Shown here: one piece after another, positions 1,403 to 41,017 of the stretch
Numbering within the stretch: the stretch's first letter is position 1
How the letters are laid out: every line of letters begins with the position of its first letter
Assembly (NCBI RefSeq): GCF_036711975.1
Contig: NC_091972.1
Span: forward strand, 31,439,001-31,503,000
Length of the DNA: 64,000 nt
Source of the DNA: Onthophagus taurus
Taxonomy: Eukaryota > Arthropoda > Insecta > Coleoptera > Scarabaeidae
Reading direction: 5' to 3'
Notes under the pieces: model-generated
Database searches by the model: none
The model's input: the letters and a program-made list of their open reading frames with translations, nothing else
Told to the model about the DNA's origin: nothing
Made by a program: the position numbers and the translations under genes

Positions 1403-1780
1403 CTACCATCTGCGTTGAACCCCAATACTCCAGTTAGGTTTAGACCTATTGGGTCCTCTAATAACTTTACTCCAAGCTCCAGTTATTTTAGTTTGATCAG
1501 TTTTGTGACCAGCGTTGATACTGGCAACAGTATCCTTTCCAACTCTATCAACGCCACCTCCTACACTCCACGGATACGGACTTTCTGTACTTCCCCCGAT
1601 TTGCGTACCACCTGGAGCAAAAGATCTTTTGTTTCTAACGTGGTGATCAACATTTACAAGTTCATATTGTTCAGGTACGTATTGTTCTACAACCAGGTAT
1701 TGTTGATATTGATCTTCAGGAATAACAAAAGCAGCAGAAAAAGCCACCAACGCAAATAAACCTATGTATTTGATCATCAT
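1403..1780 (-). CDS. Coleoptericin-like antimicrobial peptide precursor, copy 1
   Basis: Encodes 125 residues: a hydrophobic signal peptide (about 1-18, ending SAAF), an acidic Gln/Tyr-rich propeptide, an RNKR furin-type site at 49-52, and a 73-residue mature peptide that starts SFAPGG and ends with WSKVIRGPN.SKPNWSIG...RRW. That C-terminal block is the hallmark of coleoptericin, acaloleptin and related beetle peptides, which are secreted after infection and act on bacteria. The start is MMIK at 1780: the ATG lies directly after a splice acceptor, and a longer ORF beginning at 1801 is only intron read-through. The 5' UTR intron is 1781-1867 with donor GTAAGT at 1867. A TATA box and two kappaB-like sites lie upstream. 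Copies 2 and 3 at 5.3-5.7 and 10.6-11.0 kb are close paralogues. The family call rests on motif recognition. Confidence 0.93.
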   Translation of the reverse strand: MMIKYIGLFALVAFSAAFVIPEDQYQQYLVVEQYVPEQYELVNVDHHVRNKRSFAPGGTQIGGSTESPYPWSVGGGVDRVGKDTVASINAGHKTDQTKITGAWSKVIRGPNRSKPNWSIGVQRRW

Positions 1781-1965
1781 CTGTAATAAAAAAGAAAACA
1801 ATATCTTTAATCGTCAAGTTCCATTATAACTTATTATTGATATCAATCTGGTGAGAAAGGCACTTACTGTGTAAAAGATGTATCGGGCGACTGTATAAAA
1901 ACAATTATGTAGATCTGTTAACTGAAGAAATTTGACTTTGTTTCCTAACTTGAAGTGAGTTGAGT

Positions 1966-5318: not shown

Positions 5319-5693
5319 CTACCATCTACGTTGAACTCCAATACTCCAATTGGGTTTAGCCCTATTTGGTCCTCTAATAACTTTACTCCACGATCCAGTT
5401 ATTTGAGTTTGATCAGTTTTGTGACCAGCATTAATACTGGCAACAGTATCCTTTCCAACTCTATCAACGTTACCTCCTACACTCCACGGATAAGGACTTT
5501 TAGTGCTGACGCCTATTTGTGCACCACCTGGCGCAAAAGATCTTTTATTTCTAGCGTGGTGATCAACATTTATCAGTTGATATTCTTCCGGTTCGTAATG
5601 TCCTACAAGGAAGTATTGTTGATATTGATCTTCAGGAACAACGAAAGCAGCGGAAACAGCCACCATGGCAAGCAAAGCAATGAACTTGATCAT
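5319..5693 (-). CDS. Coleoptericin-like antimicrobial peptide precursor, copy 2 (promoter disrupted)
   Basis: Encodes 124 residues with the same plan as its neighbours: signal peptide ending SAAF, acidic propeptide, RNKR processing site, 73-residue mature peptide beginning SFAPGGAQIG and ending WSKVIRGPNRAKPNWSIG. The intron acceptor is followed by ATAATG instead of ATGATG, so translation must begin one codon later than in copies 1 and 3. The 5' UTR intron is 5697-5797 (donor GTAAGT). The coding region is intact, but a 2.2-kb transposon lies inside the TATA box, separating the gene from its upstream sequence, and the distal kappaB site is lost. The coding sequence looks functional; expression is doubtful. 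Confidence 0.92.
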   Translation of the reverse strand: MIKFIALLAMVAVSAAFVVPEDQYQQYFLVGHYEPEEYQLINVDHHARNKRSFAPGGAQIGVSTKSPYPWSVGGNVDRVGKDTVASINAGHKTDQTQITGSWSKVIRGPNRAKPNWSIGVQRRW

Positions 5694-5888
5694 TATCTGT
5701 TATAAAAAAGTAATATTTTTAATCATACAAATTATAACTTATTAACAAAAAAATGTATGGAAAATTGCTGTATTAATTTGATGAAAAATACACTTACTGT
5801 TTATAAGATTTATGTGCGGATTAACTGTGTTGAAACCAATTGTGCAGACGAGATATTTGATTTTATGGTTCGTAACGAGAGCCGCACC

Positions 5889-5895
5889 GAATATA
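5889..5895 (-). promoter_or_regulatory. Residual TATA half left beside a transposon, copy 2
   Basis: On the minus strand TATATTC remains directly next to the transposon end. Alignment by eye with copy 3 (GCGTATATATTCGGCG) shows the ancestral copy 2 promoter read GTGTATATATTCGGTG and was cut in the middle of TATATAT. The TA duplication leaves a shortened TATA-like hexamer on the gene side. Confidence 0.6.
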
Positions 5896-8095
5896 CAGTA
5901 CTAGCGTAAAGTAACCCCCCCCCTGTTTAACTTCTGAACAGATTGAGATATCAATATGAACAAAAAAACGTCAGTTTCTATATTTTATCAGCACAAATAT
6001 TTTCTTATGAAAAATTTTGGTATTACTTTTAGTTTTTCCGGAAAATGGAACAGCTTTGTTTTTTTAAATGGAACACCCAGTATATTATGGTATCTTTCGA
6101 AAGAATAAAACAATACGAATTCAACGATACCTCACAATCAAATATCGGTTTATTAGTTTTTCGCATAAAAATTAAACAAAATGCGGAATTTCGCCGGAAA
6201 AACCAACGTATCTTCGTTGACTACCTGTCGAGATACAATGGGCCAGATAAATGGTGGACGGTCAGTTAAAGGTCGGTCTACGCTCGGGTTAAGCAGGGTT
6301 AAATCAGCAATTCTTTTAGAATGTTTTTATGAAACAATCAATACAAGAAAAGGATAAAAAGAAAGTTCTTTTTAAAACATCTAAGAAAAAATTGTCATAA
6401 CAACAATTTTAAAGTTTGTAGGTACTTTGAAATTTTGTATTTAAGGCAACATGCAAATATTTTCCTTCATTTCTATCTTTGAATTCTACCCGACCAAGTA
6501 TAACCAAAGAGAGGCGAGATCAAAATGGCTAGAAGGAGTTTAGAGCACAATATCGAAGCAATTTTAATATTCGCTCGTGCTGACAGAGCGACGAGAGAAT
6601 CTACATGAAACAGAGCGACAATTTAAGGAACGATTTCCTGAACATCCAATTAGTCGAAAATATTTAAGAGAACTTGCGAATAAGTTTTTGGAAACTGGAA
6701 GCGTCGAAGACCGCAAAGAACTGGTCGTCAGATATTAACAGAAGTATTTAATGCGCCCATGATGTCGTCTGCTGCTATCGCATCAACGTGTGATGTGTTA
6801 AATATTTCCACGTCGTTGTTGGACGACGTGGAAATACTTAAAGAAGAATAAATATCATCCATTTTAAATAAAAATGCTTCATGAATTAACAGAAGATGAC
6901 CCTGATATAGAAGAACAGAATTTTGTGAGCTAATGACAAATATGGTTGAACGAAATCGATTATACTTGAAACATATTTGTTTCAGTGATGAATGTACTTT
7001 CTTTTTGGGAGGAAAATTGCATCGGCGTGATGTTAATCCACATGAATATCGTGAAGTTATCACTCAATTTCATTATAAAGTAAATGTTTTTTTTTTCAAG
7101 ACTTTTGCAAATTGTACAACAGAATCCTGACGATTTTGAAATGGAACTATAGTGTTTCATCAAGACGGAGCACCTCCACATTATGCGCCAATGGTACGAA
7201 ATTATCTTGATAAAAATTTTAATGGACAGCAAGATCACCAGATCTGACACCTTTAGATTTCTTTTTATGGGGTTATTTAAAATCCAAGGTATATGAAATT
7301 CCGTTGGGTAGTATTGAGGATTTAAAACAAAAAATTATTGACGTCTGCCAAAATATTGATCATCACATGTTACGCCGTGTGAGAGAGGAAACACTACAAA
7401 GATGGTACCACTGCCTAGAAGTTCAAGGTAATCATATCGAACAATTTACTTAATAGTTGATTCTTAATAAATAAAAAATTCTTTTATTATTCAATAACAA
7501 CACTAAGCAAATTTTTCAACCGTTACCTATACTAGCAAAATCTTTAATAAGAAAATTTAATTTCTTATATTGACTTTTTTTCTTTATAAATATTTTTTGA
7601 TAAAATATGATTAATTCATAAATTTAATATACTTCCACCCAACTTTTATTTCATTTCTAAAAAAAATAAGTAATTGAACTTGCAATTTTAAATCCGTCTT
7701 AGCTTGAGCGTATACCGACCGTTAACCTACCGTCCACCATTTACCTGGCCGATTGCATTTCGACAGGTAGTCGACGAAGATACGTTGGTTTTTCCGGCAA
7801 AATTCCGCATTTTGTTTAATTTTTATGCGAAAAACTAATAAACCGATATTTGATTGTGAGATACCGTTGGATTCGTATTGTTTTCATCTTTCGGAAGATA
7901 CCATAATATACTGGGTGTTCCATTTAAAAAAACAAAGTTAATCTATTTGCCGGAAAAACTAAAAGTGATGGCAAAATTCTCCATAAGAAAATATTTGTGC
8001 TGATAAAATATAGAAACTGACGTTTTTTTGTTCATATTGATATCTCAATTTGTTCGGAAGTTAAACAGGGGGGGGGTTACTTTACGCTAGCACTG
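5896..8095. mobile_element. Tc1/mariner-superfamily element with about 390-bp terminal inverted repeats
   Basis: The ends are CAGTACTAGCG (left) and the complement of CAGTGCTAGCG (right), flanked by TA on both sides (5894-5895 and 8096-8097), the standard target duplication of this superfamily. The inverted repeats run inwards to about 6290 and from about 7705, an unusually long pair. The inside codes for a decayed transposase on the plus strand. The insertion interrupts the promoter of coleoptericin-like copy 2. Copies of the same general design occur at 52093-54063. Confidence 0.9.
6525..7453 (+). pseudogene. Mariner-like transposase, broken
   Basis: Starts MARRSLEH with an N-terminal helix-turn-helix region (FPEHPISRKYLRELANKF, GSVEDRK) and continues to the catalytic core with FSDECTFFLGG (first Asp), FHQDGAPPHYA (second Asp) and, in another frame, SPDLTPLDFFLWGYLKSK (third Asp region), then a C-terminal LEVQGNHIEQFT. 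Several frameshifts and stops break it. The core resembles the better-preserved transposase at 52.5-53.5 kb, which has a DD41D spacing. Confidence 0.8.
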
Positions 8096-8139
8096 TATAC
8101 ACACCGAACTTGCGCATAAACTGTTGCATATTGGATTAA

Positions 8140-8149
8140 GGGGAATCAC
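8140..8149 (+). promoter_or_regulatory. Proximal kappaB-like site of copy 2, displaced by a transposon
   Basis: GGGGAATCAC lies where copies 1 and 3 have GGGGAATTAC, but has one further mismatch to the kappaB consensus. It is now about 2.2 kb from the copy 2 TATA remnant instead of about 40 bases. The matching distal site near 8270-8279 has decayed to a TAGGAATTTT-like sequence. Confidence 0.45.
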
Positions 8150-8799
8150 TACATCCCACTGTTTAATTGTCGTTTATTTTTTGGAGATTCATTTACGTGG
8201 TGGAGTCCCAGAGACCCGTATAATCTAATCTACTGATTAGTACATTATTGTCCTTTTGATTCTTACAATAGGAATTTTATTTAAGCCATTTTTTTGTTGA
8301 CAAAGAAACAGCAAAAAATAATCTATAAATGTATTAATTGCAAGTACTAAGATGGTGATGACAATTGTTATCTTTAAATCATTTTTAATGTGTTAACATT
8401 ATGTCAATTGTAGAAACAATATTTATTATGTTAACGTGTATTTCGAAGAAAAATATTTGTGTAATACATTCTAGCAATTTTTAAAGATAAATACATAGTT
8501 ATATAAAGTTAAAATAATATATGCAGTACCTACCTAACTTAAAAGAAGTTGATGTTTGATCAACCCAACCCAACCTTCTTATAGAATGGACATTTGCAGA
8601 GAGTTTTGCACCAAGCTAGATTATCCTTGTAGACTTGTCACAGTCTTTGTGGACAAAATTGGGCCCCGGTCGTTGTCAACGTCCGGATAAAAACATTATG
8701 ATCGCTAACGAAGAATCGCTGGAGAGTTGAATTTGATTTACAAGCAGTATAGACGTCAGTTAAGTCCATTTAAACGAAAATTGTTTAAACATCATTGAG

Positions 8800-9754
8800 A
8801 TGGGACGCAAAAAATGCTCTTCGGAAGGAGAAAGACGCCTAATATGGAAGATGTTAGAAAAATAGAAAAATATAACTAATTTATCGGGCAAATTAGTTAT
8901 ATTGGGAGTTCGCCGAAAAAAGTTCGAAATGCGCTCAAACATTATCGAAATAATAAAAATTTTTCAAATCAAAAACGATCAAGACGCAGAAAAACCTCAA
9001 AACCAGAAAATTTTCTAATTGTCTAACAGGCGCCCAAAGATCTTTTTGCTACTTCTTTACAGATAAGAGCCACAATGCAGCAGGAATATGGTGTCAACAT
9101 TGCAAGTAGGACTGTCAAATAACTTCTGGAAACCAATCTCCAGGGATGCCAAAGTTTAAAAAACCGACGGTTTCGCTTGGAAACCATAAAAAGCACTTGG
9201 AATTCGTAAAAAGCCATATTCAATCTCTTCCCTCTTTCTGAAATTGCGTAATTTGGAGCGACGAATCTAAATTCAATCTATGCGGAACATGTTATATGCG
9301 ATGTGCTGCAAATAAAGAGTTAGATCCAAAGTACTTCGTCGGCGGAAGTGTAATGGTATGGGGTTGTTTTAGCGAGCGTGGTGTTGAACCTATTGTTCAA
9401 ATAATAGGAAAGCTAAATGCCATAGCATACCAAAATTGTTGTTGAACCACCACCCATTATCCCATATTTGAAAAATTTGCCGTTGTCAGTTTATTCGAAA
9501 ATGGTTTTCGCAAAACAATGCCCTGCCAAAGGTCTGAAATAATGATTTCAGAATCAAGCAATACCACTGCCGGTTTGGCCTGTACAGAGCCCAGGTTTAA
9601 TCCAAATGAGAACTTATGGACAGTTATTCAAAGAAGAGTTATGATGACGCTAAAACCAAAGACGCTACAAGAATTATGGGACGTTATCGAGCAAGAATAT
9701 CAGAAAATGGTAAAAAGTAATGAGTGTTCAACTTACACTCTATGTATATTCTGA
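8800..9754 (+). pseudogene. Tc1-like transposase remnant
   Basis: Begins MGRKKCSSEGERRLIWKML, a typical Tc1-type N-terminal DNA-binding start, and passes through frameshifts to WSDESKFNL (first catalytic Asp), SVMVWGCFSERG, and a C-terminal FNPNENLWTVIQRRV (around the catalytic Glu) ending EQEYQKM. Stops and shifts make it dead. A putative right end near 9968-9998 was noted, but no matching left inverted repeat was found, so the limits are open. It lies between the divergent copies 2 and 3 of the peptide cluster. Confidence 0.8.
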
Positions 9755-10292
9755 ATATTTTCAAGCTTATTAAGTGATGTTTAAGTTTTATTTACAATGA
9801 AAACATTTCTGTAAAAAAAATCGTGTATTTCTGTTTTTCTTTTCGTTAGTTTACGTCTCACTACAAAATATGTTTAATAATAATAATTAATAAATAAATA
9901 CTTTTAAGTTCCTTATAGAAAACTTTCATTCTGCGTCGATTTTATGCGCCTTTAACTAGATTCAGTACGGTGTGCTAATTAGCGTGCCACCCCTGTATGT
10001 TTGAGTAGTTCTATACATGAGGATGCACGTGAATCTTCAGTAAAGATCTGCATTGTGTTTAAAATTGCAATAATCGGTTGGTAGTCCATCTTTTACACTA
10101 CCAGTTTTCTACCTTATGGATAGTAGAAAGATTTGGGTATGTATCATAGAACAAGTTAGCCACTTTACTATAAAATCTTCAGATTTCTTCAAAACATGTA
10201 AATCTACCGGCAGTTTTAGTAATAATTGTATTAATCTCAAAATAACTTCATATTTAGTTTGTACTGAGAATATTATTTATTTAAGACGGAAT

Positions 10293-10646: not shown

Positions 10647-11024
10647 ATGATGATCAAGTGCATTGCTTTGTTCGCCTTGGTAGCATTTTCCGCTGCTTTT
10701 GTGATTCCTGAAGATCAATATCAACAATACTTCCTTGTAGGACATTACGAACCGGAAGAATATGAACTGATAGATGTTGATCACCATGCTAGAAATAAAA
10801 GATCTTTTGCGCCAGGTGGTACACAAATAGGCGGCAGCACTGAAAGTCCTTATCCGTGGAGTGTCGGAGGTAGCGTTGATAAAGTTGGACAGAATACTGT
10901 TACCAGTATTAATGCTGGTCACAAAACTGATCAAACTCATGTAACTGGATCATGGAGTAAAGTTGTTAGAGGACCAAATAGGGCTAAGCCCAACTGGAGT
11001 ATTGGGGTTCAACATAGATGGTAG
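10647..11024 (+). CDS. Coleoptericin-like antimicrobial peptide precursor, copy 3
   Basis: Encodes 125 residues: signal peptide about 1-18 (MMIKCIALFALVAFSAAF), acidic propeptide, RNKR furin-type site at 49-52, and a 73-residue mature peptide starting SFAPGGTQIGG and ending WSKVVRGPNRAKPNWSIG with a terminal HRW. Family knowledge: such glycine- and proline-containing beetle peptides are made by fat body and secreted into haemolymph against bacteria. The ATG follows directly on the acceptor of a 74-nt 5' UTR intron (10573-10646). TATA and two kappaB-like sites lie upstream, and AATAAA signals follow at 11070 and 11107. This is the copy with the most complete promoter. It is divergent from copy 2. 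Confidence 0.94.
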   Translation: MMIKCIALFALVAFSAAFVIPEDQYQQYFLVGHYEPEEYELIDVDHHARNKRSFAPGGTQIGGSTESPYPWSVGGSVDKVGQNTVTSINAGHKTDQTHVTGSWSKVVRGPNRAKPNWSIGVQHRW

Positions 11025-16225: not shown

Positions 16226-19200
16226 TTACGGAAAATGCATAACATTTAAATCAGGATATTGGGCATTTTCAATTGACCCTCTACCAAACTTTAACTCTAA
16301 AAAATCTCTTATATTATTAGGACTCGGTACGTTTCGGCCACAAAAACTAATACTCGACATGGGATGCAAAAAATGATCGGGAAATTCCATTCGTTTACGA
16401 TTCAAGTTCCAACCGTCTAAAGACATTGTTCCATTTTTAGCATAAAACGGAAATATGTTCACAAAAATTCGATTCTTTTTACTATAATGAACGCGAAAGT
16501 AGTTCCCCTCCCCAGCTTTTTCCCAATAAAACCCTTTCAAATCAACCACAGGTTTAAATTTCGCTCTTTCCAACCAAACACATCTAGATAGATCATCCCT
16601 ATTGACCCCTACATCAACGTCGTAATCCCATGGAAGAATATCACCATGTTTCATAGCCCCCAATAAACTACCACCTTCCAACCAATATCTTATACCACAA
16701 TCTTCAAGATTCTTAAAAACATGTAAAGCGGTTTTACGTAAATTTGACATACAACATGGAGGAGTTAATTTTTTTTCAATTAAATATGATGGTAATGAAG
16801 AAACAACTGGAGGAAAGCAACGGGATGTATTTTTAGTACACCCATACCATTGTTCTGTTTCGTCTTCTTTAACTAATTTTATTTTAAAGGAACGATATAA
16901 ATTTTTTAATGCTTCTTCTTCAAGTCTTCTCATCCATTGAACATGACGATTCTCTAATGGAGGTTTACCATCTTGAAAAATGACACCTTGTAAAATTTTA
17001 ACCTATAAAATATTAGATCTTAATGCAAGATTTTTTATATTAGACGAACCGGAAAGTAATGTTTTTCTGCGCATGTCAATATTCGATTGCCATCTATCCG
17101 ATCATTGTATACCACAAAGTCATGTTAGGCTAGGTACTAGGTATTTTCAGTCAGCCGATAATTTAGTCGATGGACATAAATATACTAAGCTTATGGCTAG
17201 GCACACCCATTCGATTTTCAGTCGGCCGATAGATTAGTTTATGGACAGAAATATATTAAGACTAAAAATCGACTGTGTGTGCCTAGCCTAAATATAAAAG
17301 TTGAGTTGATATGCAGTTATGTTGTATATGCACCTACACTATAACTGCAGATTTACTGAGTCGGTTTTAAATTGATAATGCATTGCGATTTCAAACCAAT
17401 CCGACTAAGTTGTTTCGTTGACGAACAATCGACTGTGTAGCCTTAGACATCTTAGGCCCTTCGCACACCAACGCTACACAACTACAACAATACTGTAATA
17501 AAATGGCTCTAATACTGTGCAAGGCCTTCAATCAAGTGATGACAATATTATTGCAGCTTATAACTACTATAGAAAAAAGACAGCGTCCAAGCCTTTTCTG
17601 CACCCTTTCGAAAATAAATTAAAACATTGTAATTATATAAGCAGGGATATTTATCGATGTGGTCGGCAACCGGTCGCTTGGAGATTCAATATGCTGAGTC
17701 ATTCATAGGTTAAGTAGCGTTGGTGTGCGAGGGGCCTTAAGACACAAAATAATCAAAAAGGACACTGATGGAAACGACCCATTGATGTAGGAGGTACTGT
17801 ATTTTTTGACCTCGATTTAAATCCCGCCATCTTGAAAAGCAGACCCAAAGGCACAGAATAACCAGAAAGATCACTAGGAGTATGTTATTGGTGGTTAAAC
17901 CACATAAACCACTCGTCTGATTTACAGTGGTTTAACCACCAATAACAGCAAGCTAGTCGAAGTCATTAACGTATAAGAATTTATAACATAAACCGATAAT
18001 TATTAATAATTCACAAGTATCTTTGGTAAATGTAAGCAAAAGAAGATAGAAAAATAACATCCACATTCGCTACATATTTTCTGTAACGTGGATGGCACAC
18101 ATGGCAATAATTCGATCTAATCTAGGCCCTTGTAGTTCAGTGCACTCTCGAAATTTAATTCTCTGTTTTACTTTAGAGTGTAATAAGTAACTTAGAGGAA
18201 ATCAAGGAACGATTTAATGAACAGATTATTTACAAGAGAAGAATATTATTTCTTTTTATTAAAAGTTAAAAAAAAATAAGGAAGAGTTTTGGTAAATCCC
18301 TTGAAGAATATCAGCGGTTAACGAGATATGACATCTTAAAAATTAGAACTGAAGAAATATATATATTACACATTTTTGGAAGAAAATTTTACGAAATCCA
18401 TATTGGAATTGGCTATGGAGGACGAAATAGAATGATTAAAGAAGTTAAATCAAAATAGAAGAACAGATTACAGTAGAAATTGTTATGATATATTTAAATC
18501 TTTGTGAACCCTGTCAAAAAAAGTTGTTAATTGATATGCAGTCACAAGCAGACGACGACTATAAGGTTATAATGGTTTATCAAGCCCATCTGACGAAGTT
18601 TATTCAACTCAGAGCTGTTAAAACAAAACAAGCCGAAGAAGTTGCTTATCATCTTCTGAACATATTTACAATTTTCTCAGCTCCTTGCATTTTACAACGC
18701 GACAATGGCAAGGAATTTGCAAATAAAGTTATTGAAGAAATGTGTAAAATGTGGGGTGAACTCAAACTCGTTCATGGCAAATCGATACTTAGCCAAATAC
18801 AAGGTTCGGTTGAGGAAGCCAACCAGGACATAGAAAATATGTTGTCTACTTGGCTTGAAACTAATAATACCATAAAATGGTCTAAAGAAATGAAATGTAT
18901 CCAATTTATGAAAAAACGGGTTCATCTTTTAGAAGCAAAGTTTGCTTGAAAACACATTTGTCAACAAACACTATTTTCGATATCGTTATAGTGGAAGAAC
19001 TTGAAGAGGTGTCAAAAGAGCACTGTAATACAGATATTGTACTTGAAAGAATAACTCCAAACGTAGACAAAGACAATGAAGCAGAGAATGAAGGCAATGT
19101 GGAAATAGAAATACACAACCCTACTGAAAATGTGCAATTAACAACTGTTGGAACTTCGGCTACAAATTCGCCGGAAATCTGCAAAGTACGCACTAGAAAA

Positions 19201-25200: not shown

Positions 25201-28200
25201 TTTTTCGATATTCCATATAGTTTCGCGGAAAATCGCGGTTTAGTAAGATTCGGTATAGTCGAACACGGCTGGTTGGATTTTAACGCGGTTTTAACCAAAA
25301 TATGGCAAATAATTCTGTTTGTCGAATCCTGTTATTGGGTTTTCAAAGTTTTGTCTCCATAATTTTTTTAAAACAATTTACCCGTGCTATAAATTAAAAA
25401 GAAACAGAAATAAGTCATGCGGGGGGAGAGGGGTTCCGTTCAGTTAGAAAAAGTGGTGCTGGTTGTGTTCCAGACTGGCTTCGACGTGGCGTACTGAAGT
25501 CTGAAGGGATTCTGGTAGTTCCGTCTCAGAATGTAACAGACTCTCAAAGACGCATTCCGCGCCCTGGAATATTTTTCGTATAATTATTTTGTATCTGTTT
25601 GTAATATTTATTTATTTCATTTTACCTTCGCGCGAATTTTTTTCAATATCTTACAATATATTACACGGTATATGCGTGAAAGGTAAAGGTAAAATGAAAT
25701 AAACAAATACTACAGAAAAATACAAAATAATTATACATATATAATATATAATTATTCTATGACGCGTCTTGAGCGTCTATTACGTTCTGATGCAAGGTCT
25801 ACCGGAATCCCTCCAGACTAGACTTCAGTACGCCACGTCGAAGCCAGTCTGGAATACACACCAGCATAATCTTTTCCAACTGAACGGAACCCCTCTCTCC
25901 CCGCATGGCTTATTTCTGTTTCTTTTTAATTTATAGCTCGCGTATAGTGTTCTAAAAAAATTAATGAGACAAAACTTTGAAAACCCCATAACAGGATTCG
26001 ACAAACACAATTTTTACATGTTGGTTAAAACCGCGTTAAAATCCAACCAGCCGTTTTCGACTATACTCCAATTTACTAAACCGCGATTTTCCGCGAAACT
26101 ATATGGAATATCGAAAAAATTAAATATGCACATCATTAAGAACACATCAGGGTACCATCTGTTCAAATTTGAATTATTTTCGTCGGATAGTTTTTGAGAA
26201 AAAAAATCGCAAAGTGGACAAAGTTGCCGGCACCGTCAAAAATAGGCTACTTTTTTCATTTAACTCGCGATTTTAGGAAAACCACGGAGTCGAAAATTTT
26301 CAATATGCTACGTAGAAATGTTCAGTGAATACAACAAAGCTAACCGCAATTTTTTTCATCGGACGGTTCTCGATATATCGATCTTTAATCTGACGAGAAT
26401 TGACTTTTCAAGTTATACCGAGATTTATTTAACTGGAGTTTATCTAGCGACTGAAGAACCGGCCCTTAGTTTCTTTTTCTTTTCTCATAGTTGCCATATC
26501 AATTATTTATCTTAATTTGATACATACATTGGGTCTTTTTGAAAACATCGCCTCTTGTGTTAACTTGACCTTTTGTCAACCTTATGTTAATTTTACAGAA
26601 TAAAGTATATTTCTCTGTTATTATTTTAATTCTGGCTGGCAAAAAACTTATTATTATTAGCACTTACAACACGGTTTTATTTTCATTTGGAAAAATTGTC
26701 TTAAAATAATGATACACCTTAAATATAACACCCTTCATCTGAGAATTAACTTCCTATCTTTTATTTCTCACTTCCATTGATTTCTTTTCATAAGAACTTA
26801 CACTGCAAATGGATAAAAGAACTTATGTTACGTAAATCGATTGCAATTCACGATAAACAAACGCCCATTGCAAGTATGAGCAAGTAAAAACACACTTGTT
26901 ATGCCGCCGCCAATGACTTTCGGGGTATCGGATCTTATAGATTCCAAGAATCTGACGTAGTGGTTTTCTGAGTAATTTGGTTCAACAAATATCGTACCGG
27001 CTCGGCTGTAGGTCTAGTGTTAGTTCTGGTGATAGTATTAGTATTAATTCTGCCAGGTTGTATATTTTTATTCAACTAAAACTAGATCGATTTCGTTACT
27101 CGAACTTGTTTATGAAGAAGGTTGCAACAAGGCAACCGTGAAGTTTTTCAAAAAACGCATGGCTTAACTCGAAAGTTTCTAGTTCTATGTTTACTGTTGG
27201 TTCTAGCAAATGATCTGGCAATGTCATTCGCCTCGCTTCTCTCTGGATAGGCCATAACGTGTTAAAAACTGCCCTATTGATATACAGGGAATGTTTGTAA
27301 ACAATTTCAGCGTTTTGATTTACTTCTGTTTATAATATTTTTAATTAAAAATGGATTAGAAAGGGTTTGGGCTAAAACTAATTGATAAATATATTTACTG
27401 AACATAAAGTTAACATAAACATGCCAGTTTATAAACATTGGATGATCAAGGATGGAGGGGATCAGGGATTACTGTATATGTCTGAGACAAACAAATGTTT
27501 ATAAAAGCAAGTGGCTGTGCTAGATTGGTGGTTCTAGCTTTAAAACAACATTACTTTCCGGTTACCATAATCTATCTAATTCAAACTAAACGCCATCAAA
27601 AAATTTAAAAGAAATCATCAAAAAATAAACCAGTACATTAAATATTAAATTATTCATGCAAAAACTTACACTATAATTTAAATATGATGTTTGTAGATAT
27701 AAAGATAATGGAAATGGTGCCAAAAGAGCATTTGGCAATTCATTTAAAATTCCACTATTCAAAATAGTGGCATGTTTCCCAGAAACCAGCCCACATTGAT
27801 ACCCTTTGATCATATCAAGTCGAACCATCCACAATTTAGTTTCATGACTAACATTAAAACATTTTAAATCGGTGTAAGTAACAGGAATAGCCAAAATGGC
27901 ATTGGGCTTATTAGTTTCATGTAAAATGTATTCTAAAATATCCCTATGAGGTAATCGAGTGGAATCAGGTAAAAATAAAACATACTTTGTATCAATCTCA
28001 AAAATGGGATACTTATCTTTATATGAAACGCTTAACGACGGTTTTAAACTCAATATTTTAATGTTAGTCATGTTTATGTTATCGTCAATCTCCAAAGGTG
28101 GGTACGGTGCCTCATCTGAGATAACGTAGACTTTAACGTTGGGGTAGATTTTCGTAAAAGAGTAAATAGTCGGGATAACATCGTTTCTATCCAGTTGAAA

Positions 28201-28380
28201 ATCTCTTATTATTATTGTTACGAGATCACCCAAGTCTTGCACGTTCGACTTTGAGGTTATGTGAGAATTTTCTTTATCGGGAGTAGAAAATATGATAAAA
28301 TTTGCGAACAGACGCCAGGTTGAATAAAGTAAAACTATGTTTACTAAAACCACTAGAAATCCAAAAGGTTTTATACGCAT
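16226..28380 (-). CDS. FKRP: Fukutin-related protein (FKRP), LicD-type ribitol-phosphate transferase
   Basis: Two exons: 28380-27670 (237 codons) and 17002-16226 (258 codons plus stop), joined in phase 0 across a 10,667-nt intron with GTAAGT donor and TAG acceptor. The product is 495 residues, the same length I recall for human FKRP. Residues about 7-30 form a single N-terminal membrane anchor, giving a type II Golgi protein. The first exon carries the glycosyltransferase-like stem domain (VTIIIRDFQLDRNDV, APYPPLEI, LYLQTSYL). The second has WYGCTKNTSRCFP, TPPCC, the LicD signature [20 protein letters not shown] with DYDVD at 363-367 (metal-binding Asp residues), FRVHYS and ELKFGRGSIENAQYPD. 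Known role in animals: adds ribitol 5-phosphate to the alpha-dystroglycan O-mannosyl glycan. The start is the first Met before the anchor. The intron is filled with mobile elements. All key motifs are intact. Confidence 0.95.
17125..17291. repeat. Small inverted-repeat element with two internal direct repeats
   Basis: The ends TTAGGCTAGG (17125) and CCTAGCCTAA (to 17291) are inverted copies. Inside, a unit of about 75 bases beginning TTTTCAGTC and holding GCCGATA, TTAGT and GGACA is present twice in direct orientation (from about 17146 and 17215). It is a MITE-like element in the FKRP intron. Confidence 0.55.
17455..17736. mobile_element. MITE with TTA target duplication (Harbinger-type ends)
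   Basis: Inverted ends GGCCCTTCGCACACCAACG and the complement of GGCCCCTCGCACACCAACG, flanked by TTA at 17452-17454 and 17737-17739. A 3-bp TTA duplication with G/C-rich ends starting GG is typical of PIF/Harbinger MITEs. At 282 bp it has no coding capacity. It lies in the FKRP intron. Confidence 0.75.
17884..17946. repeat. Perfect 20-bp inverted repeat (hairpin)
   Basis: GTTATTGGTGGTTAAACCAC at 17884-17903 is exactly inverted at 17927-17946, with a 23-base loop. It could be a tiny MITE or a foldback remnant. It lies in the FKRP intron. Confidence 0.7.
18195..19330 (+). pseudogene. KRBA2-like (Ginger/gypsy-type) integrase remnant
   Basis: A degenerate H2C2 zinc region (GYGGRNRMIKEVK, LCEPCQKK) is followed by the integrase core: MQSQADDDYKVIMVYQAHL with the first Asp region, LTKFIQLRAVKTKQAEEVAYH, the second Asp in LQRDNGKEFANKV, and VEEANQDIENMLSTWL around the catalytic Glu. 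Downstream frames add an acidic linker and a C-terminal block (KYALEKQASK, DVRGKADSRNVI). The whole order matches KRAB-A domain-containing protein 2-like transposon integrases. Frameshifts and stops break it. It is oriented opposite to FKRP, within its intron. Confidence 0.75.
19350..19820. repeat. Degenerate TAGTTCTAG/CTAGACCTAG repeat tract, copy A
   Basis: A tract dominated by short irregular motifs (TAGTTCTAGT, CTAGACCTAG, AACTAGAA) around a more unique core with AAACTCGAAACTTTCTAG. A related tract with AACTCGAAAGTTTCTAG lies at 26985-27235 in the same intron. I do not recognise the repeat family. Confidence 0.55.
20090..21245 (-). pseudogene. DDE (IS630/Tc1-like, DDE_3) transposase remnant
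   Basis: On the minus strand the N-terminal ORF at 21245-21021 (TTIKRILHEG, KKRKRTCTKTNISEW) is followed by frames reading 'YLDETYIHAGHTSPNSWTDN'-like sequence (first Asp), a GGDYHSDMNSQNYEKWLTEK block, and near 20340-20480 DLRLPSYHPDLNRIEMIWTQ with the final catalytic residue. This order is that of a widespread insect DDE_3 transposase family. Many stops. Limits are approximate. Confidence 0.7.
21225..21945 (+). mobile_element. 3' end of a jockey/CR1-type LINE, interrupted by a 4.5-kb element
   Basis: The plus strand encodes the LINE thumb and C-terminus: IIQFFQTVKNLGVMMDSALSW, KLGCFRPPIVRRNLYYSLIL, NKLERLQNNYLRFIFDLRKY and FTVQALWNNLPTELRNARSF, with one in-frame stop. The 3' UTR is split by the element at 21953-26465 and appears to resume at 26469 up to an AATAAA-like end near 26600. 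Confidence 0.8.
22766..24110 (+). pseudogene. Mutator-like transposase plus YqaJ-type nuclease remnant
   Basis: After a possible first exon (MGKYVHLKNYPLAFEDVLEK), the frame at 23066-23290 has FNCNKTHIKFINESKEGLSS, FLLCFMCGIKKKL and IEINSAVVS, resembling the insect Mutator-like transposase domain. Further frames give YDASSGV (usual 'YDASSGVA.IIG'), then a YqaJ-like region: a frame reading RFGDVCRMRNDTSCLNKVKS and, at 23961, YGFLVASPNETI with AIVEVKCPANFK, matching the YqaJ nuclease core 'GFL.ASPDG......EVKCP'. The Asp of ASPDG is replaced by Asn here. Stops and frameshifts show decay. Family names are by recognition only. Confidence 0.6.
25065..26263. repeat. 1.2-kb near-perfect palindrome
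   Basis: The left arm (25065 to about 25630) is inverted in the right arm (about 25690 to 26263) around a short centre near 25660. Landmarks: TTAAATGAAAAAAGTAGCC against GGCTACTTTTTTCATTTAA, and CTGGCTTCGACGTGGCG against CGCCACGTCGAAGCCAG. No coding sequence. It is probably a foldback element or MITE nested in the 4.5-kb transposon. Confidence 0.85.
26985..27235. repeat. Degenerate CTAGTTCTAG-type repeat tract, copy B
   Basis: Shares short motifs and the core AACTCGAAAGTTTCTAGTTC with the tract at 19350-19820. It lies near the 5' end of the same FKRP intron. Confidence 0.5.
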
Positions 28381-39221: not shown

Positions 39222-41017
39222 TATATTTATTTATTTATTTATGTACATAGGACACAGCACAGGACGAACCTAATAAAAGCTGAAAAGAATAAGAACAAAA
39301 CAAAATAATAAAGACACAAAATAACATCAGTAGTGAAAAGTAGTAAAAAAATAAAATAAAATAAGATAAGTAAAATAACCGATCAAAAATTCTGATTGAA
39401 ATTAAGGAAACATTCTATAAACAAGTAAAAAATAACAACAATAAGGAATTGCTGATTGTAATGTTAACAATGATACGGCTTGCTCCCAACAGCAGTTAAG
39501 GTCGATTTTTTAAACGAGCTAATGTTGATAAGAATTAGTAAGTGTTGTAGGAGTGAAAAAGAGAAAATCATATCTCAACATTCTGGGCGGAACATGCAAA
39601 TTCACTAGAGACGTAAGCGAAGTCGAATTATACATATTATGTGTTAATTTATAGAATAGCAATACGAATACATCACTAGCAAAACGTCGCTGAGTCAGTC
39701 GCAGAAACCGAAAAGATTGGCACGCCGAGTCGTAGTCAACATAGGTGATATGAGACTTCCGACATAAAAATCGAAGGAATCTCTTTTGGACTAGTTCTAA
39801 TCTTACACACGTACATGTCATATTTAGGATTCCAGACGACGAACAATAATTTAAAACGCTGAATACATACGCAAAGTAGAGAGTTTTTATGGAACTGATA
39901 TCAGTGAAATCAGTCGCTGATCTCATGAGAAATCCAAGCATGCGAGAAGCCTTGTTGACCACCGAGTCGACGTGCTCATTAAATAAAAGTTTACTATCAA
40001 AGGTCACCCCCAAATCTTTTATAGACGTGACTCTCTGCAACAATTCCCCACCAATAAAGTAATCAAAACGTATGGGATTAGCTTTCTTTGTAAATGTGAT
40101 GGTAACACATTTACTAAAATTTAGGCTAATAAAATTTATCAGACAATATTGAGCAAGGCCGAGGAGATCGCGCTGAAGAGCAAAACAATCCTTAGGGCCA
40201 GATACACGGCAGAAAATTTTTAAATTGTCTGCATACATTAAACAGTTTGAACGTTTAAAACAATGAAAAATATCATTAATGTAAATATGGAAGAGCAAGG
40301 GGCCAAGGATGCTTCCCTGAGGGCCACCTGCGAGGAGAAACCTCTAATCCTGACACACTGCGTTCTATCAACCACATAGGAAGCGAGCCACTGTTGTATG
40401 TTTGCTGGGCAAACCAACTTGCTCTATTTTATTTAATAATAACAGATGATCAACCTTATCAAATGCTTTGATAAAATCAGTGTATACGGAGTCAACTTGG
40501 TAGTTATCGTTAAAAGAATGCAAAATATAATTAGTGTATTCAAGAAGATTAGTCTCTACTGAGCGACCAGCAAAAAAACCATGCTGTCGTTGGTCTAAAA
40601 CATTCTTAACAGTGTAAAAAATTGGTTTATAAATTAAGCTTAGGCAGTAGAGAAATGAGCCTGTAATTTTTGACGGAACTTCTACTGCCAGATTTGAATA
40701 TAGGCACAACTGTGTCACGCTTCCATATTTGCGGAAAGACGCATTCTCTTAAAGATCTATTGTACAAAATTGTTAAAGGCTCACTAAGAGATTCACAGCA
40801 GTTTTTAATGAGAACAGGAGGTACACTGTCGCCGCCGGGCCCTCCAGTAGAGTTAACCGCTCCCAGAGCTCTCAAGACCTCAGCCTGCTCAAACTGTAGG
40901 GACTGGTCGCAAAAGCGCGAATTTACAAGGAGAAAACCATTGTTGCCACACGTAATCCGCGATGAGCGAAATACCGAACCGAAATAATTGGAGAACAGAT
41001 CGCAGATGTGCGATCTT
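39222..41017 (-). mobile_element. 5'-truncated jockey/CR1-type LINE inserted in an RTE-type LINE
   Basis: From high to low coordinates: reverse transcriptase fingers at 40875-40627 (GGDSVPPVLIKNCCESLSEP, NYRLISLLPKL), HGFFAGRSVETNLLEYTNYI and AFDKVDHLLLLNKIEQVGLP at 40718-40368, a long ORF at 40298-39519 with YADNLKIFC (usual YADD changed to YADN) and the thumb (IKDLGVTFDSKLLFNEHVDS). The 3' end is a (TTTA)n tract at about 39222-39240. The endonuclease is missing. Confidence 0.85.

Follow-up and report, generated by a model that had tools for sequence, protein, structure and literature searches.

It is well established that transposons can alter the promoters of stress and immune genes, and the general lesson of such insertions is not new. 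Hsp70 copies carry more insertions than other gene sets, and the heat-shock promoters in question are, like the one studied here, proximal promoters of an inducible gene family (PMC2793543, available portion). Natural insertions in Drosophila immune loci, such as FBti0019386 upstream of Bin1, can change the infection response of the neighbouring gene (PMC8439047, sections at hand), and the promoter of a moth moricin gene requires kappaB and GATA sites close to where transcription starts, according to the accessible part of PMC5457402. For the transposon itself, the closest description that we found is the aphid LTIR-like DD41D mariner (Lsra-like), for which the excerpted text of PMC5490172 gives terminal inverted repeats (TIRs) of more than 460 bp and an element of more than 2.3 kb as criteria. 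A search of the open-licence literature, by which absence is unproven, yielded no earlier case of an insect antimicrobial-peptide gene with a transposon in its TATA box. Here we describe a 2,200-bp element that lies, with certainty, within the TATA box of a coleoptericin gene.

The window that we analysed is a stretch of 64,000 nucleotides (G000:C7:31439001-31503000) within a genome of 290.8 Mb on 33 contigs, and the coleoptericin copies and other features in it are as follows:

1403-1780, minus strand: coleoptericin copy 1 (PF06286)
5319-5693, minus strand: coleoptericin copy 2, an intact ORF of 124 aa (genome place L001)
8760-9760, between the head-to-head copies 2 and 3: broken Tc1-like transposase remnant
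10647-11024, plus strand: coleoptericin copy 3 (PF06286)
16226-16933 and 27586-28380, minus strand: fukutin-related gene in two pieces (LicD E 1.7e-14, FKRP stem E 3.2e-43)
39519-40238, minus strand: ORF of 239 aa with no Pfam match at E 0.001

The remnant at 8760-9760, two fragments of which gave no Pfam match at E 0.001, is presumably Tc1-like, judging by motifs such as WSDESKF, and the two fukutin-related pieces, separated by about 10.7 kb on the minus strand, follow exon order. Copy 2 matched the Coleoptericin model with E 1.8e-25 and 90.2 bits, above the curated Pfam cutoff of 25; by this match it is a member of the Coleoptericin family (PF06286), predicted to be an antibacterial secreted peptide that is induced by infection. 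Searching the genome with the copy 2 protein gave nine matches, seven of them strong (71-100% identity, all on the contig of the window) and two weak and partial (42-45% identity). Copies 2 and 3 are arranged head to head, and their upstream regions are inverted and related. The seventh copy lies outside the window:

G000:C7:31374378-31377737, match 1501-1860, minus strand: L007, a coleoptericin copy with an open mature region

L007 lacks the first four residues and the start codon at the expected place, its leader reads TATATAAA, and the proximal kappaB-like site described below was not found at the corresponding place. It is likely a pseudogene or a differently spliced copy and, because the start codon region is missing, it was left out of the promoter alignment and the coding comparisons.

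The promoter alignment therefore comprised six copies, namely copy 2 with its flanks joined, copies 1 and 3, and L004, L005 and L006. In all six the parts follow one another in one order, with the GTRATTCCCC kappaB-like site first, then the ATGCAAC/TTATGCGC block and the TATATA core, and after these the start region, the leader and the splice donor. Some 30 bp separate the core from the conserved CATAAA-like start region downstream of it, the donor after the leader reads CAGTAAGT, and the same box is visible in the L007 leader. The GTRATTCCCC block stands near the box in the joined flanks of copy 2 and in the five other aligned copies, a pairing of kappaB-like site and nearby TATA box that is expected of kappaB-driven insect antimicrobial-peptide promoters; Rel factors may bind the site and drive induction after infection. 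In copy 2 as it is today, the parts next to the gene are:

5697..5797, minus strand: predicted leader intron, 5' of the copy 2 ORF, with conserved GTAAGT donor and AG acceptor (six-copy alignment)
5798..5866, minus strand: predicted first exon of copy 2, with a CATAAA-like start motif near 5866 (six-copy alignment)
5890..5895, minus strand: residual TATA half, TATATT, which includes the gene-side TA duplication at 5894-5895
8096..8099, minus strand: other TATA half, composed of the TA duplication at 8096-8097 and the TA at 8098-8099

When the two flanks of copy 2 are joined at one TA, the gene strand reads GGTGTGTATATATTCGG, and the counterpart in copy 3 reads GGTGCGTATATATTCGG. The earlier note on this DNA had claimed that an element with a TA duplication split the TATA box of copy 2, and this agreement with copy 3 bears it out; the assignment of the split site as a TATA box rests on the six-paralogue alignment. 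Using a hand-entered TBP matrix, we scored copies 1 and 3 and L004-L007, whose boxes are intact, at 6.69-11.96 bits, and copy 2 at 10.09 bits as joined flanks and at 3.96 bits today in the same register (about 0.3% of window positions score at least 3.96 bits and 0.005% at least 10.09). Because of the score and the register of the residual TATATT, the copy 2 box is, as predicted by this matrix, weakened and not erased, and TBP may still bind it.

The element between the two halves is composed of the following parts:

5896-8095, plus strand: non-autonomous long-TIR Tc1/mariner element, 2,200 bp, its transposase remnant on the plus strand
5896..6303, plus strand: left TIR, on the gene side, ending in a run of nine C
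6504..7453, plus strand: transposase remnant in several broken frames (stop-to-stop frames)
7688..8095, minus strand: right TIR (inverted-repeat alignment)

The TA duplication flanks the element at 5894-5895 and 8096-8097, and the inverted arms are 91% complementary over 412 nt, a length that includes 4 flank bases, the repeats proper being about 400 bp. One of six fragments scanned from the window copy matched the DUF4817 helix-turn-helix (E 8.4e-6). The 21-bp end motif occurs exactly 278 times in the genome (135 + 143, a count that includes relatives such as L039 and L040) vs 0 for the reversed control, far beyond a chance occurrence. With its TA duplication and terminal inverted repeats, the element is by sequence a member of the Tc1/mariner superfamily, in agreement with the earlier description of a mariner-type element of 2,200 bp. 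We scored 40 of 375 candidates from a DNA search; among these at least 38 are full-length family copies at 94-100% identity, the window copy included, and the copies closest to the window element have 98% identity.

Thirty of the at least 38 full-length copies were aligned. All 30 have a TA on both sides (the right-hand TA was inside the query, the left-hand TA was not), their median pairwise difference is 1.4%, with 1.28% between the window copy and its nearest neighbour, and no stop-to-stop frame in any of them exceeds 124 aa, so that none is of transposase length. Open transposase frames of 363 aa were found in 4 of the 150 matches scored, at 87-92% identity in the searched stretch. Of two that were examined further, L039 carries the exact motif at both ends, at a spacing of 2,348 bp, and L040 at the left end only. 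L039 matched the DUF4817 helix-turn-helix, with HTH_Tnp_Tc3_2 below its cutoff and no DDE domain model matching at E 0.01, and its second and third catalytic D, as assigned by eye, are separated by 41 residues (DD41D). This spacing is seen in L039 and not in the window copy, because the frame of the latter is broken. On these sequence features, the element is a non-autonomous member of an abundant long-repeat Tc1/mariner family, which adds to the earlier note.

Two further observations concern individual family members. The window copy has an A at position 5900, base five of the gene-side repeat end, where the 29 other aligned copies have G, a change that may lower its mobility. L033 (G000:C15:4830439-4835626) and L034 (4676270-4681457) lie 154 kb apart and have distance 0 over the aligned element, although their flanks differ; movement in the very recent past or gene conversion would explain this.

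An element of this abundance makes a misjoin in the assembly conceivable, which would mean that the insertion has been misplaced. However, the TA duplication is perfect, the joined flanks restore the paralogue sequence, private changes set the window copy apart from the other copies, and no second, element-free copy 2 occurs among the nine coleoptericin matches, and we hold an artefact of this kind to be extremely improbable.

Around the duplicated TA, 29 of the 30 insertion sites read YATATR (16 of them TATATA), vs 85 of the 5,664 TA dinucleotides in the window (1.5%; binomial P 4e-52). The same target hexamer is present in all seven coleoptericin TATA boxes, with copy 2 counted as joined flanks. 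The insertion into a TATA box is therefore explained by YATATR target choice, from which such an event is expected now and then. Recurrent TATA-box hits, which would amount to a preference for promoters, were not borne out, as sites of at least 8 bits make up 5 of the 30 insertions and 8 of the 85 control YATATR sites (Fisher P 0.32), and no host gene promoter was recognised by eye at the six insertion sites inspected. The sites of L013 and L020 run into frames that we take to resemble retroelement ORFs; L020 is the best-scoring TATA-like insertion site, and the 313-aa frame downstream of it presumably resembles a Penelope-type reverse transcriptase with a GIY-YIG end.

The age of the insertion was estimated from changes private to the window copy, which in the 30-copy alignment amount to 13 substitutions over 2,184 sites and 3 indels. 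This is at most about 0.006 per site and, with a dS of 0.152 between copies 2 and 3, places the insertion at about 0.078 of the time since these copies split, a rough value in that sampling further copies could lower the private count and the dS comes from a 372-nt coding comparison. The insertion would thus be young, falling roughly in the last 8% of that time, and the private count and the 98% identity to the closest copies agree with the recent insertion that had been proposed. Divergence of the TIR arms was rejected as a clock: the arms differ by about 8-9% but match opposite arms elsewhere at 88-93%, and the difference is therefore family-wide. Since the insertion, neutral change in the 372-nt frame would be expected to bring 2.2 substitutions, 0.10 stops and 0.51 frameshifts, and the probability of an intact frame without selection is 0.545. 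Because the insertion is young, an intact copy 2 frame is expected even without selection. The earlier note was right that the coding region is open (5319-5693), but openness is ruled out as evidence of function, since it would be seen with P of about 0.55 in a gene under no selection at all.

Beyond the element lie the displaced parts of the promoter:

8112..8139, minus strand: displaced block conserved among paralogues, with ATGCAAC and TTATGCGC (six-copy alignment)
8140-8149, minus strand: proximal kappaB-like site GTGATTCCCC, intact, shifted by the element
8269..8278, minus strand: distal kappaB-like site, altered, reading AAAATTCCTA, where copy 3, L004 and L005 have GGAATTCCCC

The proximal kappaB-like site was originally 40 bases from the TATA box (copy 2 as joined flanks) and is similarly close in the aligned paralogues; it is now 2,244 bases from the residual TATATT, and the displacement that the earlier note described is thereby confirmed. 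Beside this site, the GATA-like TTATC is altered to TAATC in copy 2 (8133-8139); it is TTATC in copies 1, 3, L004 and L005 and TTATG in L006. The distal site has 4 changes in 10 bases, for which P is 5e-7 if all of them came after the insertion (0.008 over the whole branch, uncorrected for the site having been chosen), and because of the former value it was probably altered for the most part before the insertion.

This probable early decay, the altered GATA-like site and the coding sequence together lend some weight to the idea that the copy 2 promoter was already failing and that the element was tolerated since little was left to lose. In the coding sequence, the dN/dS of copies 2 and 3 is 0.45 vs 0.11-0.27 in the 14 other pairs, and the residues unique to copy 2 number 5, against 1 unique silent change, although L004 has 6 unique residues, so that copy 2 is not extreme. 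We consider prior failure possible but doubtful: copy 2 has fewer resolved derived changes than copy 3, both in the displaced block (7 vs 12; 10 unresolved) and in the leader (3 vs 6; 12 unresolved), the proximal kappaB-like site is intact, the motifs were chosen after being seen, and L006 is also without the GATA-like site, as copy 1 is altered at the aligned distal site. General decay of the copy 2 promoter is thus unsupported; with fewer derived changes than copy 3 it does not appear to be generally faster evolving, and beyond single motifs we see no sign of decay in it before or after the insertion.

The explanation that we favour, and regard as fairly probable as a whole, is that a transposase encoded elsewhere in the genome moved a young, non-autonomous long-TIR element in trans, and that the element inserted at its preferred YATATR, which in this case was the TATATA core in the TATA box of copy 2. 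What remains is a weak hybrid box, CTG-TATATTCGG, correctly spaced from the start region, and the kappaB-like site and the ATGCAAC and TTATGCGC blocks, the conserved upstream module in its entirety, have been pushed 2.2 kb away. Copy 2 would then lose most of its infection-induced expression and keep basal transcription that is weak or leaky, its function would be covered by copies 1 and 3 together with the other cluster, and the frame would still be intact for want of time. Loss of induction is favoured because none of six kappaB patterns has an exact match inside the element and because the box drops in TATA score, from 10.1 bits to 4.0, and on this reading of the sequence copy 2 has most likely lost most of its infection-induced expression. 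Against the loss, the in-register TATA-like match outscores 99.7% of window positions, and the gene-proximal 300 bp of the element contains three sites with one mismatch to GGGRNNYYCC vs 0.37 expected. Enhancers, moreover, can act over 2 kb.

Copy 2 might accordingly still respond to infection, with the residual TATATT and the start region as core promoter and with kappaB input from 2.2 kb away or through the copy 3 promoter. The residual box is in its original register, the proximal site is intact, and the related, inverted upstream regions of the head-to-head copies 2 and 3 would suit such an arrangement. However, the predicted TATA score is down by 6 bits, and the kappaB-like site stood 40 bases from the box in the joined flanks and stands at a similar distance in the paralogues, as the moth moricin sites stand near their start (PMC5457402, in its accessible part); we think a retained response unlikely.

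The gene-side repeat end could also act on its own account, its G-run GGGGGGTTAC and AT-rich end replacing the kappaB-TATA module as a new promoter. The G-run, 16-25 bases from the junction, is one of the three sites with one mismatch to GGGRNNYYCC and falls near the place of the lost site; permissive promoters are described in Tc1/mariner ends (PMC6446368, portion available), and the fly gene Bin1 gains an infection-only start site from a transposon (PMC8439047, sections at hand). On the other hand, the G-run has two mismatches to GGGGAATYAC, the coleoptericin family's own form, it is no exact kappaB match, and the transposase promoter should point away from copy 2, because the remnant reads on the other strand. 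A new promoter from the element is in our view very improbable. Slightly more far-fetched still is that the repeat end (G-run, then TTAC, plus the target TA) is a portable promoter half that recreates a weak TATA box and a kappaB-like site at about the old distance; if true, copy 2 would keep or change its infection response, and the family could rewire TATA-box genes wherever it inserts.

The locus offers a clean natural case of promoter splitting, in which related antimicrobial-peptide genes adjoin and one has been hit base-exactly in its TATA box by an insertion so young that the gene has otherwise stayed as it was. When the target hexamer of a transposon equals the TATA core, target choice alone can lead it into core promoters. 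The case also corrects two inferences, as the divergence of the repeat arms cannot date the insertion here, and function does not follow from an intact frame.

Compared with the aphid Lsra-like group, as far as the excerpted text of PMC5490172 describes it, the family shares the TA duplication, long TIRs (about 400 here vs about 460 bp) and, in L039, the DD41D spacing, with a size of about 2.2-2.35 kb here vs more than 2.3 kb there. Set against the criteria of that group, the window element has TIRs of about 400 bp and a length of 2,200 bp, and L039 has 2,348 bp between its end motifs. Unlike the aphid elements, the window copy and the 29 others are without intact transposase, and the family's ends differ in sequence from those printed for the aphid elements in that source. 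The Tc1/mariner blurry promoters likewise have an AT-rich end beside a gene, but they read into the transposase, whereas copy 2 lies on the outer side of that end (PMC6446368, portion available). FBti0019386 adds sites and an infection-used start, as established by experiment, whereas here, as read from the sequence, promoter context is removed (PMC8439047, sections at hand). Finally, the heat-shock insertions named in the available portion of PMC2793543 are the P element and MITEs, with no mariner among them, whereas here one element splits the TATA box itself.
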